Source: Chloroflexota bacterium (GTDB lineage Bacteria > Chloroflexota > Limnocylindria > Limnocylindrales > CSP1-4). Taken from it: DNA of 60,788 nucleotides. The position numbers were made by a program, and so were the translations under genes. Location: the NCBI GenBank assembly GCA_021786385.1, contig JAJYNJ010000065.1, positions 1 to 60,788 on the forward strand, read 5' to 3'. The notes beneath the pieces were generated by a model. That model did not search any database, was not told where the DNA came from, and saw nothing but the letters and a program-made list of their open reading frames with translations. This document shows positions 37,198 to 57,546 of this stretch, piece after piece; within the stretch, counting starts at the first letter, position 1, and each line of letters opens with the position of its first letter.

Positions 37198-37234
37198 GTT
37201 GCCAGCCGCGTCGCGCTCCGAGCGGGGGCTGCGG

Positions 37235-37286
37235 CGTCGCGCCGTGACGTCAGCCCGAGGCGTCGCGCCGTGACGTCAGCCCGAGG
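37235..37286. repeat. 26-bp tandem repeat, two copies, with TGACGTCA palindrome
   Basis: Two perfect 26-bp copies (37235-37260 and 37261-37286). Each contains the palindrome TGACGTCA. They lie 47 bp upstream of the methyltransferase start, so they could hold paired operators. Confidence 0.85.
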
Positions 37287-37320
37287 GGTACGCGCGCTCG
37301 CGCCCCCGCGCACGACGCGG

Positions 37321-53262: not shown

Positions 53263-53281
53263 CGCGGCACAACCGAAGAGC

Positions 53282-53372
53282 GGACAGGGGAGCACCACCG
53301 GTGGTGCTGAGAGTGCGGCCAGGGCCGCAGACCCTCGGAACCTGATCTGGGTCGTACCAGCGAAGGGAGTCC
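53282..53372 (+). ncRNA. TPP riboswitch (THI element)
   Basis: All conserved parts are present: P1 closing pair GGAC/GTCC, GGGGAGC, CTGAGAGT after a P3-type stem, GACCCTCGGAACCTGATCTGG and GTACCAGCGAAGGGAGT. It senses thiamine diphosphate and controls the downstream kinase and transporter genes. Confidence 0.95.
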
Positions 53373-53380
53373 AAGCGCGC

Positions 53381-53405
53381 GACCTCTGTCCGAGAGACGG
53401 AGGTC
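53381..53405 (+). promoter_or_regulatory. ribosome-site sequestering hairpin of the TPP riboswitch
   Basis: GACCTCTGTC and GACGGAGGTC form a 10-bp stem (one G-U pair) with a 5-nt loop. The 3' arm contains GGAGG (53399-53403), which lies 5 nt before GTG 53409. This indicates control of translation rather than termination. Confidence 0.7.
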
Positions 53406-53408
53406 GTT

Positions 53409-54281
53409 GTGTATGCGGCGCTGAAGGCGCTCCTCGTCGGCAACGGGCGCGTGCCGTCGCGGGCGAGCCTGCCGCGCGAGGTCTTCGAGCACGTCGGGTT
53501 CGTGGTCGCCGCGGACGGCGGCGCCGCGGCCTGCGGATCGCTCGGCCTGCGGCCAGATCTCGTCGTCGGCGATTTCGACTCGGCCGAGCCCGCCGTCATC
53601 GAGCGCCTCGCCCGTGCCGGCGCTGTTGTGCGGCGGGTGGCTGCGGAGAAGGACGAGAGCGACCTGGAGCTCGGGCTGCGTGCGGCGATCGAGCGGGGCG
53701 CCGATCTGGTCGTCGCCCTCGGCGCCCTCGGAGGTCCGCGCATCGAGCACACCCTCGCGGCGATCGGCCTGCTGCAGGTGGCCGACGAGGCTGGGGTCGC
53801 CATGGCGATCGTGGACGACCGCTCGACGCTGAGGTTGCTCGGCCAGGGCTGCGGCCGCGACGGGCCACCTCGGCTCGAGATCAGGGGCGCTCCTGGCGAC
53901 TATGTCTCGCTCTTCCCCTGGGGCGGCGACGTCCCGGGGGTCGTGACCGAGGGGCTGCGGTACCCCGTGCGGCACGAGACGCTCCGCATGGGGCCGTCCC
54001 GCGGCCTTTCGAACGAGCTGCTCGGCCCGGCTGCGGCCGTCCGCTGTCAGTCGGGCCGTCTGCTCGTCGTCCATACCCGTCGGTCGGCCGTGGAGCCTCC
54101 GGCCGAGGGGCTGCGGTACCCCGTGCGCGACGAGACGCTCCGCATGGGGCCGTCCCGCGGCCTTTCGAACGAGCTGCTCGGCCCGGCTGCGGCCGTCCGC
54201 TGTCGGTCGGGCCGTCTGCTCGTCGTCCATACCCGTCGGTCGGCCGTGGAGCCTCCGGCGGGAGAGCACAGGGAGGAGTGA
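53409..54281 (+). CDS. thiN: thiamine pyrophosphokinase with duplicated thiamine-binding domain
   Basis: Transfers pyrophosphate from ATP to thiamine. The catalytic N-terminal domain has VVAADGGAAAC, PDLVVGDFDSAEP and EKDESDLELGL. The C-terminal thiamine-binding beta domain (EGLRYPV, then MGPSRGLSNELLG and GRLLVVHTR) is present twice in tandem, 52 residues each and nearly identical, which makes the protein 290 residues instead of about 220. GTG 53409 has GGAGG 5 nt upstream inside the riboswitch-controlled hairpin. It precedes the ECF transporter genes. Whether the extra domain is folded or functional is unknown. Confidence 0.9.
   Translation: MYAALKALLVGNGRVPSRASLPREVFEHVGFVVAADGGAAACGSLGLRPDLVVGDFDSAEPAVIERLARAGAVVRRVAAEKDESDLELGLRAAIERGADLVVALGALGGPRIEHTLAAIGLLQVADEAGVAMAIVDDRSTLRLLGQGCGRDGPPRLEIRGAPGDYVSLFPWGGDVPGVVTEGLRYPVRHETLRMGPSRGLSNELLGPAAAVRCQSGRLLVVHTRRSAVEPPAEGLRYPVRDETLRMGPSRGLSNELLGPAAAVRCRSGRLLVVHTRRSAVEPPAGEHREE
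53949..54260 (+). repeat. 156-bp in-frame tandem duplication in thiN
   Basis: Copy 1 is 53949-54104 and copy 2 is 54105-54260. They differ at about four bases (changing His to Asp and Gln to Arg), so the duplication is recent. Confidence 0.95.
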
Positions 54282-54285
54282 ATCG

Positions 54286-54888
54286 ATGACTGGTCGTGCC
54301 GCGCCCTACGGGGGCTCCTTCGCGGCGCCCGACACGCGTTGGCGGACGCGCGACATCGTAGTGACGGCCGTGATCGCCGTCGCGTTCGGTGTCGTCTTCT
54401 GGGCGTGGGACTACGTCTGGGGGTACACCGCGCCGCTCTTCTCGTCGTTTGCGCCGGGGGAGTACATCGGCAGCGGCGTCTGGCTGATGCCGGCCGTCGT
54501 CGCCCCGCTGATCGTGCGTAAGCCCGGGGCTGCGCTCTTCGCGGAGCTGGTGGCGGCGATCGTGTCCGCGCTGTTGGGCAACCAGTGGGCGCTCGATGTG
54601 GTCCTCTCGGGGCTCTTGCAGGGGGCCGGCGCCGAGCTCGTCTTCCTGGCCGCGCGATACCGCCGCTGGACGCTGCCCACCGCGCTCGCCGCGGCTGCGG
54701 GGTCGGCGATCGGTGAAGTGGTCCACGACATCCCGATCTACTACCCGACGATCGGCGCGGTCCTGCAGGGCTCGATCGTGGTGATCGCCGTCGTCTCGGC
54801 GGTGGGTATCGCGGGCCTGGGCAGTTGGTGGCTCGTCCGCGCCTTGCGCCGGGCGGGCGTCCTCGAGGGCTTCCCATCGAACGCCTGA
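54286..54888 (+). CDS. ykoE: ECF transporter substrate-binding subunit, YkoE-like
   Basis: A 200-residue membrane S component with about five or six helices. The segment DIVVTAVIAVAFGVVFWAWDYVWGYTAPLF and the later NQWALDVVLSGLLQGAGAELVFLAARYR match the YkoE family, proposed to bind hydroxymethylpyrimidine or a thiamine precursor. It starts 4 bp after thiN and sits under the TPP riboswitch, consistent with thiamine-precursor uptake. The ATPase gene follows by overlap. Confidence 0.88.
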   Translation: MTGRAAPYGGSFAAPDTRWRTRDIVVTAVIAVAFGVVFWAWDYVWGYTAPLFSSFAPGEYIGSGVWLMPAVVAPLIVRKPGAALFAELVAAIVSALLGNQWALDVVLSGLLQGAGAELVFLAARYRRWTLPTALAAAAGSAIGEVVHDIPIYYPTIGAVLQGSIVVIAVVSAVGIAGLGSWWLVRALRRAGVLEGFPSNA

Positions 54889-56342
54889 GCGGTGGGGCGC
54901 GCCGGAGCACGGAGCGGGCGGGCGACGGCTCGGAGAACGGGGCGCCGCCCGAGATCGTCGCTCGCGACTTCGGCTGGACCTACCGTGGGCGTGGGCGGCC
55001 AGCGCTCTCGGGTCTCTCCTTCCGGGTCGCGGCGGGTCAGGCCCTCCTCGTGATCGGGCCATCGGGCAGCGGCAAGAGCACGCTCGCCCGCGCGCTCACG
55101 GGGCTGGTGCCGCACGAGCTGCCCGGCACGTGGGCGGGGTCACTGCGGGTCGGGGAGCTCGATGTCGCGTCGACTCCGGCCCAGCTCCTGAGCGCCCGCG
55201 CCGGGATCGTGTTTCAGGAGCCCGAGAGCCAGCTGGTGATGCCGCGGGTCGAGGACGAGGTGGCGTTCGGGCTGGAGAACCGCGGCTGGGAGCGGCCGGC
55301 GATGCAGGCGCGCGTCCGTGAGATGCTCGCTGACGTGGGGCTAGCGGGTTTCGAGCACCGGGCGACGGCGGGACTTTCCGGAGGCGAACAACAGCGCCTG
55401 GCGATCGCCGACGTGCTGGCCCCGATGCCCGGGCTCCTCGTGTTCGATGAGCCGACCGCCAACCTCGATCCGCCCGGCATGGCCAGCGTCTTCGAGCGGT
55501 TGCGGTCCTTGGTGGCGACGCGCGGGCGGACGATCGTGATCATCGAGCATCGCCTCGATGCTGCGCTCCCGCTGGCGGACCTCGTGCTCCTGCTCGACGC
55601 CGAGGGGCGCCAGATCGCGTGTGGCGCGCCCGAGGAAGTGGGCCGCCGCCATGCCGCCACGCTTGCGCGGATCGGTAGCTGGGTGCCGCACGCGTGGCGC
55701 CCGTGGGTCACGCCGGGCCGCCAGCCCACCCGAGGCTGGCCCTCGGGCGCTGCCATGGCGGCGGATGCCGGGGCATCGCGCCGCATCCCTCCGACAGTCC
55801 GGCGGCATCCCGTGCTCCGCGCTACCGCGCTGACCGCGCGCTACCCGTCTGGCGCCGATGGATCGCCCCGCACGGCTCTCTCCGCATCCCGTGCTCCGCG
55901 CTACCGCGCTGACCGCACGCTACCCGTCTGGCGCCGATGGATCGCCCCGCACGGCTCTCTCCGACGTCTCCTTCGAGCTGCACGCTGGGGAACGCGTCGC
56001 CCTCGTGGGGCCCAACGGGTCCGGCAAGTCCACGCTCCTCTTCGTGCTGGCCGGCGCCCGTCGGCCCGATGCGGGCAGCGTCCGCGTCGGGGACGGCACC
56101 CGGGAGCCGAGCACGGACCCCGCACGCCTGAGAGGGCGGGACCTTGCCCGCCTGCTCGGGCTCGTCTTCCAGAACCCCGAGCTCGGCTTCGTCGGGCGGA
56201 CCTGTGCCGCCGAGGTGGCGGCGAGCCTGCCGGCGATCGGGCGACCCGCGGACCCGGCCGATCCGGCTGTGCGGGCCGCGCTCGCCGCCTTCGGTCTGGA
56301 GGCGCTGGCAACGGAGGATCCGTTCCGCATCAGCGAGGGTGA
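54825..56342 (+). CDS. ykoD: first half of a split ECF transporter double ATPase (YkoD-like), frameshifted
   Basis: Energy-coupling ATPase domain 1: Walker A GPSGSGKST, Q-loop IVFQEPESQLV, signature LSGGEQQRLAIA, Walker B LLVFDEPTANLD and H-loop IEHRLD. YkoD normally continues into a second ATPase domain in the same chain. Here a 79-bp tandem duplication at 55805-55962 shifts the frame, so after about residue 353 the product reads non-native Arg/Pro/Ala-rich sequence until the stop at 56342. GTG 54825 is the only canonical in-frame start, inside ykoE; a CTG at 54885 overlapping the ykoE stop is an alternative. Confidence 0.75.
   Translation: MVARPRLAPGGRPRGLPIERLSGGARRSTERAGDGSENGAPPEIVARDFGWTYRGRGRPALSGLSFRVAAGQALLVIGPSGSGKSTLARALTGLVPHELPGTWAGSLRVGELDVASTPAQLLSARAGIVFQEPESQLVMPRVEDEVAFGLENRGWERPAMQARVREMLADVGLAGFEHRATAGLSGGEQQRLAIADVLAPMPGLLVFDEPTANLDPPGMASVFERLRSLVATRGRTIVIIEHRLDAALPLADLVLLLDAEGRQIACGAPEEVGRRHAATLARIGSWVPHAWRPWVTPGRQPTRGWPSGAAMAADAGASRRIPPTVRRHPVLRATALTARYPSGADGSPRTALSASRAPRYRADRTLPVWRRWIAPHGSLRRLLRAARWGTRRPRGAQRVRQVHAPLRAGRRPSARCGQRPRRGRHPGAEHGPRTPERAGPCPPARARLPEPRARLRRADLCRRGGGEPAGDRATRGPGRSGCAGRARRLRSGGAGNGGSVPHQRG
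55805..55962 (+). repeat. 79-bp tandem duplication that splits ykoD
   Basis: Copy 1 is 55805-55883 and copy 2 is 55884-55962, identical at 78 of 79 positions (G55838 against A55917). Because 79 is not a multiple of 3, the frame changes; removing one copy would rejoin the two ATPase domains in frame. Confidence 0.95.
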
Positions 56343-56688
56343 GCAGCGCCGGCTCGGGATCGCCGCGACCAGCATCGCGCGCCCGGCGATCTTGCTGCTC
56401 GACGAGCCGACGTTCGCGCTCGACCGGCGCGCCACCGAGGCGGTGATCGGGCTGCTCGACCGTCTCCGCAGCGACGGGCGGGCGCAGCTGATGGCGACCC
56501 ACGATCCGCGGCTGATCCCGGCCTGCGACCGGGCGGTCGCGCTCGATGGGGGTCGGGTCGTGTTTGAGGGCACCGCGGCGGCGTTCCTCGTCGACCCGCC
56601 CTACCGACCCGCCGATCCGTGGCGCGACGCGGCGCCTCGCAGCGACGGTTCTGCAACCGACGCTCTTCCGGCGGGGCGAGGCCCGTGA
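55858..56688 (+). CDS. ykoD: second half of the split ECF transporter ATPase (YkoD-like)
   Basis: Energy-coupling ATPase domain 2, 276 residues as an independent ORF: Walker A GPNGSGKST, Q-loop LVFQNPELGFV, divergent signature ISEGEQRRLGIA, Walker B ILLLDEPTFALD and H-loop ATHDPRL. The ATG at 55858 lies inside the first repeat copy and is in frame with this domain only because of the duplication; it has no good ribosome site. The stop overlaps the GTG of the permease gene. If translated, the two halves could assemble like separate EcfA1/EcfA2 subunits; this is inference. Confidence 0.75.
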   Translation: MDRPARLSPHPVLRATALTARYPSGADGSPRTALSDVSFELHAGERVALVGPNGSGKSTLLFVLAGARRPDAGSVRVGDGTREPSTDPARLRGRDLARLLGLVFQNPELGFVGRTCAAEVAASLPAIGRPADPADPAVRAALAAFGLEALATEDPFRISEGEQRRLGIAATSIARPAILLLDEPTFALDRRATEAVIGLLDRLRSDGRAQLMATHDPRLIPACDRAVALDGGRVVFEGTAAAFLVDPPYRPADPWRDAAPRSDGSATDALPAGRGP

Positions 56689-57473
56689 GTTTCCTGCCCG
56701 CGCCGCTGGAGCCGGTCCGGCCGGCGCTCCTGACGCGCGTTGCGCCGGTCACGCGCATCGTCGTCGGCGTGGCGTGGCTCGCCGTCGCGGTGGTCGCGGC
56801 GGGGCCCACCGTGCCCTTCGCCCTCGGGGTACTTGCCGCGGCGGTCCTGGTCGTCTGCTCCGGCCTGCCGATCGGCCGCGTGCCGCGCCGCCTGGCGCCA
56901 CTCGGCCTCGCGGCGCTCGGCCTCGGGCTCGTCACCGTGCTGGTGAACCCGGCCAATGGCGACCCGACTGCCGTCACCCTCATGCGCGCCGGTCCACTGC
57001 GGGTGACGGAGCCGGCCCTCTGGGCGGGGGTCGCCATCGCCCTGCGCCTCGTGGTCATCGCGCTCGTGAGTCTGCTCGTCTTCGCGAGCTCCGACCCCAC
57101 GCGGTTGGCGGACTCGCTCGTGCAGCAGTGGCACATCCCCTACCGGTTCGCATACGGCACGCTCGCCGCGCTGCGGATCGTGCCGCTCCTGGCGGCCGAC
57201 TGGGCCGCGATCACCACCGTGCGCCGGCTGCGCGGCATCGAACCGCACTCGCCTCGCGACCGGGTGACCGCCGTTGGGGGCGCACTGCTGGTCCTGCTGG
57301 TGACTGCGATCCGGCGGGCGGAGCGGATGGCCCTGGCGATGGATGCCCGCGGCTTCGACACGGCCCGTCCGCGCGGGACGTACCGTCCGAACTCGCTCAC
57401 GCGACTCGATGCGCTGGTCCTAGTACTGGGGCTGGGCGCAGTCGTGGCGGTGTTCGCGCTGGGGGTCCGCTGA
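56685..57473 (+). CDS. ykoC: ECF transporter T component, YkoC-like
   Basis: A 262-residue transmembrane scaffold with about five helices. The cytoplasmic coupling motifs are recognisable: TLAALRIVPLLAADWAAITTVRRLRG and the second Ala-Arg-Gly box MALAMDARGFDTARPR. GTG 56685 overlaps the preceding stop (GTGA). Together with YkoE and the ATPase domains it forms the transporter of the thiamine operon. Confidence 0.9.
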   Translation: MSFLPAPLEPVRPALLTRVAPVTRIVVGVAWLAVAVVAAGPTVPFALGVLAAAVLVVCSGLPIGRVPRRLAPLGLAALGLGLVTVLVNPANGDPTAVTLMRAGPLRVTEPALWAGVAIALRLVVIALVSLLVFASSDPTRLADSLVQQWHIPYRFAYGTLAALRIVPLLAADWAAITTVRRLRGIEPHSPRDRVTAVGGALLVLLVTAIRRAERMALAMDARGFDTARPRGTYRPNSLTRLDALVLVLGLGAVVAVFALGVR

Positions 57474-57474
57474 C

Positions 57475-57526
57475 GCCCCCCGGGCGCCCCCGGGCCGACG
57501 GCCCCCCGGGCGCCCCCGGGCCGACG
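57475..57526. repeat. 26-bp perfect tandem repeat, two copies
   Basis: Two identical 26-bp C/G-rich units (57475-57500 and 57501-57526) directly after the ykoC stop. Each holds CCCGGG motifs that could form alternative hairpins acting as terminator. Confidence 0.85.
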
Positions 57527-57546
57527 GCACACTTCGGCCGGCCGCG

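Follow-up and report, generated by a model that had tools for sequence, protein, structure and literature searches.

A 79-bp tandem duplication places the two ATPase domains of a predicted YkoEDC-type thiamine transporter in different reading frames in a Chloroflexota genome

In group II ECF transporters, the ATPases are encoded by separate genes. The group I transporter YkoEDC of Bacillus subtilis is controlled by a THI box and consists of an S component, a pair of fused ATPase domains and a T component; the two domains of its YkoD protein have been compared with EcfA1 and EcfA2 (PMC5037267). Frame-shifting tandem duplications within open reading frames (ORFs) underlie the phase variation of capsule genes in pneumococci (Waite 2001, 2003, as cited in PMC4022640), and phase-variable tandem-repeat copy number has been described in promoters of Mycobacterium tuberculosis (PMC12817950).

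The window analyzed here is a 60,788-nucleotide stretch of Chloroflexota DNA, the 60.8-kb contig that holds a putative thiamine transport operon, and belongs to an assembly of 2.68 Mb in 100 contigs that is 95.8% complete. On the forward strand, a TPP riboswitch (THI element, 53276-53385; Rfam RF00059, 70.8 bits with a gathering score of 54.3) forms the operon leader, and the first gene is thiN, encoding thiamine pyrophosphokinase (53409-54281; TIGR01378, 156 bits; Pfam TPK_catalytic and TPK_B1_binding). It is followed by a gene for a YkoE-family S component (54286-54888; PF09819, E 4e-40) with a good upstream Shine-Dalgarno sequence (anti-Shine-Dalgarno duplex -10.9 kcal/mol), by the double-ATPase gene ykoD, and by a gene for a YkoC/CbiQ-like T component (56685-57473), whose PF02361 match (E 8.5e-23) was obtained with a longer mechanical ORF that starts at 56619. 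The GTG start codon of ykoC at 56685 overlaps the stop codon of ykoD in the sequence GTGA. The locus resembles YkoEDC in its TPP riboswitch, its YkoE-family S component, its double ATPase and its CbiQ-like T component, and the operon is predicted to encode a thiamine ECF transporter of this type, plus thiN. Unlike YkoEDC, it has thiN as its first gene, and its ATPase domains, which are fused when only one copy of an internal duplication is read, lie in different frames as assembled.

A sequence-only reading of the window had ascribed this break to a 79-bp tandem repeat, and both the repeat and its consequences for the reading frames hold up. Tandem Repeats Finder reports a period of 79 at 55805-55963 (2.0 copies, score 311), and direct comparison of copy 1 (55805-55883, forward strand) with copy 2 (55884-55962, forward strand) gives 78 of 79 identical positions, with a single mismatch (G at 55838, A at 55917) and an overhang of 1 bp. 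The duplication covers the interdomain linker and the first strand of ATPase domain 2 and, since 79 is 3 x 26 + 1, causes a +1 frameshift. ATPase domain 1 (54825-56342, forward strand) is read from a mechanical TTG start, the true start being uncertain, and its frame terminates at TGA 56340-56342. Domain 2 is read in a frame that opens after TGA 55831, has its first start at an ATG in copy 1 and runs on the same strand from this codon to the end of the gene (55858-56688). Each half of the gene has a Pfam ABC_tran match (E 2.6e-25 and 4.3e-25). The two domains do occupy different frames, and the assembled gene does not encode them as a single polypeptide. With one copy removed, ykoD reads as 594 unbroken codons with 64-74% identity to genus relatives, in agreement with the earlier claim that deletion would yield a normal fused YkoD. 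The same reading had proposed that ATG 55858 shares the frame of domain 2 solely by virtue of the duplication, and this is also the case, because the counterpart in copy 2, ATG 55937, is in the third frame.

The gene thus carries a frame-shifting tandem duplication within an ORF whose frame is restored in the one-copy reading. Its likeness to the pneumococcal capsule duplications (Waite 2001, 2003, as cited in PMC4022640) is that a gene product is abolished by a short tandem duplication within its ORF and would be restored by exact deletion. The present case differs from those capsule genes in that it concerns a vitamin importer and that its copies differ by one base; the two share an anatomy, and it is in the capsule genes that switching has been demonstrated. 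With the M. tuberculosis promoter repeats (PMC12817950) it shares a variation of tandem-repeat copy number in a high-GC genome that is elusive with short reads; those repeats lie in promoters and were shown within populations, whereas this one lies in coding sequence and is seen in a single assembly.

Comparison with close relatives, as the sequence-only reading had proposed, supports a derived origin of the duplicated state. The ykoD gene is a single continuous ORF in the genus relatives G001, G002, G004 (where it is truncated at the 5' end), G005 and G006, and likewise in the family members G009, G059 and others; those genus mates whose records carry names are MAGs of Chloroflexi. All seven relatives in the ykoD alignment have one copy of the linker. 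No relative whose assembly covers enough of the gene has a two-ORF layout, so that none of those examined shares the layout while lacking the duplication, and the duplication does not recur, the sequence being single copy in every relative examined. Because these relatives have a fused one-copy ORF, the duplicated state is derived and seen in this genome alone.

We consider it slightly more probable than otherwise that the duplication is a recent, real, lineage-specific loss-of-function allele of ykoD, revertible in principle and not a purpose-built switch; a plain loss-of-function lesion had been placed last among the three readings offered from sequence, and it fits best. On the assembled sequence, the blunt 79-bp duplication at the linker moves domain 2 out of the domain 1 frame, and translation from domain 1 would produce this domain followed by ~126 out-of-frame residues, with a stop 343 nt before ykoC. 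Domain 2 would thus be lost and the coupling to ykoC probably weakened. Loss of one copy would restore ykoD, and the allele may in this sense be revertible; reversion by copy loss is plausible, as for any such repeat. In a comparison of their changes, the S, ATPase and T proteins have diverged no further than their counterparts in the genus mates, giving no indication of relaxed evolution. The operon is otherwise intact and there is no acceleration relative to genus mates, and therefore we see no sign of long-standing loss; protein sequences without accelerated decay suggest either a recent lesion or one that many cells do not carry. The copies differ at 1 of 79 positions in ykoD and at 3 of 156 in a second duplication in thiN, a divergence of ~1-2% that is odd for duplications of very recent origin in an operon that looks freshly broken.

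The lesion is of an ordinary kind, set in an interesting metabolic context. Three TPP riboswitches are present in this genome, compared with at most one in each of the genus mates searched. Genes for ThiC, two ThiE and ThiM are also present; a search of six genus mates, among them several incomplete assemblies, found none of these proteins above the cut-off. One of the extra riboswitch operons, on contig C68 (L227 1467-6621), includes ThiD, ThiM, ThiE, a ThiL fragment and a permease of the cytosine/purine/thiamine type, and the other, on contig C86 (L245 2437-6866), includes ThiC, ThiE and a sodium:solute symporter. The composition of both contigs is ordinary for the genome, and the thiamine genes could represent either a gain here or a loss in the other members of the genus. 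No convincing match to ThiG was found in this genome and the pathway is incomplete, so thiazole must be obtained via salvage or another route. This bacterium probably has routes to thiamine besides import by YkoEDC, which may be the sole route in the genus mates, several of these being incomplete assemblies. Given ThiC, ThiE, ThiM and two more TPP riboswitches, the importer may be dispensable, and the lesion could be tolerated owing to ThiC, ThiE, ThiD, ThiM and two further TPP-riboswitch operons with transporters, a set that distinguishes this species from its genus mates. If real, the allele is a snapshot of a vitamin importer breaking in the sole member of the genus in which biosynthesis and salvage genes were found, and it would allow one to test whether selection on import weakens where a biosynthetic route exists.

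Tandem duplication is not confined to ykoD. In the same operon, the first reading missed a 156-bp duplication in thiN (53947-54258) that is in frame, has 3 mismatches between its copies and adds 52 residues near the C-terminus. This duplication is absent from six aligned relatives. Copy 1 (53947-54102, forward strand) carries the derived residues H and Q, and copy 2 (54103-54258, forward strand) retains D and R, as in the nearest relatives. Tandem repeats were sampled in 1.43 Mb, about half of the genome and chiefly the first 20 kb of contigs. This sample contains 30 tandem repeats with periods of at least 30 bp, many of them intergenic, and in 19 of them the period is a multiple of three (P = 7e-4 versus an expectation of 1/3). 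This enrichment suggests that the duplications, as a class, act like real ones under selection. Arrays of period 20 with long overhangs proved to be N runs and were discarded.

Besides that in ykoD, the sampled half of the genome includes two blunt, two-copy, frame-breaking duplications inside genes. The first is an exact duplication of 104 bp with an overhang of 0 bp in a gene with a SEC-C motif (L057 13806-14013, contig C18), which breaks a frame that is a long continuous ORF in the one-copy reading. No full-length relative of this gene was found in the 12 relatives searched, and the break is therefore judged from coding statistics and the SEC-C motif. The second, in an OmpR-type response regulator (L213 4071-4164, contig C54), is a 47-bp duplication (46/47 identical) that divides the receiver domain between two frames and splits the Response_reg match in two. 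The one-copy reading mends the frame in both genes, as it does in ykoD, and since comparable blunt frame-breaking duplications occur in such unrelated genes, the ykoD event appears to be a member of a general class. That class is either a true mutational process of the lineage or a weakness of the assembly. No frame-breaking duplication was found in coding sequence in 460 kb of G002 or in 122 kb of G009, samples too small to decide the matter, and the 122 kb of G009 include no repeat of at least 30 bp at all. The duplications are without the end homology expected of classic slippage. End-joining repair as the origin of the blunt duplications is unsupported, Ku not having been found in this assembly, and a loss of mismatch repair is rejected as the cause because MutS proteins are present. 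Ku is present in five of seven genus mates (G001-G004 and G006).

The main alternative, which we regard as unlikely though well short of negligible, is an assembly or consensus artefact, by which the cells would have an intact one-copy ykoD and the extra 79 bp would stem from the joining of contig ends or strain variants. The assembly is fragmented and of metagenome type (100 contigs), its contig order, as judged from lengths, resembles SPAdes output, and the genus mates are SPAdes MAGs. Two-copy duplications that are blunt (overhang 0-1 bp), sit in otherwise intact genes and in three cases break the frame match the picture expected from errors in joining, the copy mismatches could represent strain differences, and the operon is without relaxed constraint. 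In general, when a metagenome-assembled genome shows a two-ORF layout, its source can be one short duplication, which may be transient or an assembly error. However, the ykoD junction is without an N run, although the assembly has such runs at some joins. The two ykoD copies share no exact repeat longer than 46 bp, so there would be no loop ambiguity at k > 46, and the junction k-mers would not come from one-copy strains. Moreover, periods that are multiples of three are in excess, which indicates that duplications of this kind are for the most part real. The k-mer and N-run points favor real two-copy molecules, subject to the identity of the assembler, which is deduced from contig order. False duplication over scaffold gaps was considered and set aside, as no sampled N run is flanked by a blunt repeat; one 10-N join stands amid repeated sequence. 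Elsewhere in the assembly, three short contigs (L243, L244 and L249) consist of N throughout, and N runs of ~570-730 occur in several other contigs, one of them within the C68 thiamine operon; all of these N stretches may be scaffold gaps.

Gene fission in progress, another of the readings first offered, would mean that domains 1 and 2 are made separately, the second from ATG 55858, and form a working two-polypeptide ATPase like EcfA1/EcfA2. From this ATG, domain 2 is a complete ABC ATPase of 276 residues with its Pfam match intact, both domains are conserved and without acceleration, and separate ATPases are used by group II ECF transporters; as in EcfA1/EcfA2, two related ATPase domains could work as separate chains. 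Unlike EcfA1 and EcfA2, which are two proper genes, domain 2 here has no ribosome-binding site and overlaps the domain 1 frame. ATG 55858 is without a Shine-Dalgarno sequence (anti-Shine-Dalgarno duplex of -1.5 kcal/mol, as against -10.9 upstream of the S gene), and the domain 1 frame has no stop near it, continuing 485 nt into domain 2 with ~126 out-of-frame residues. This overlap makes translational coupling at ATG 55858 impossible, and fission would be possible only with initiation independent of a Shine-Dalgarno sequence. Since a split ykoD occurs in no relative either, we consider fission improbable. The peptide sequence named for metaproteomics, beside the out-of-frame tail of domain 1, is MDRPARLSPHPVLR.

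Two further readings involve reversion, as does the recent loss-of-function allele that we prefer. In one, which we find quite improbable, blunt duplication across the genome keeps making revertible null alleles, and the importer would be held toggling given the bacterium's own genes for thiamine biosynthesis and salvage. The other, very improbable in our view, is the reversible slippage switch of the sequence-only reading, a selected alternation of the population between a one-copy (ON) and a two-copy (OFF) importer, for which there are precedents in the reverting frame-shifting duplications that cause pneumococcal capsule phase variation (Waite 2001, 2003, as cited in PMC4022640) and in the phase-variable promoter repeats of M. 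tuberculosis (PMC12817950), but the ykoD repeat is absent from all relatives, so conservation does not suggest selection and we see no sign that the repeat is maintained as a switch, its product is not a surface structure, and similar lesions in unrelated genes of the genome point to a general process.

Shorter repeats are present in the window as well. A 26-bp tandem repeat (57475-57528; 2.1 copies, 100% identical) lies between ykoC and a peroxiredoxin gene, and a further 26-bp repeat is located at 37233-37295.
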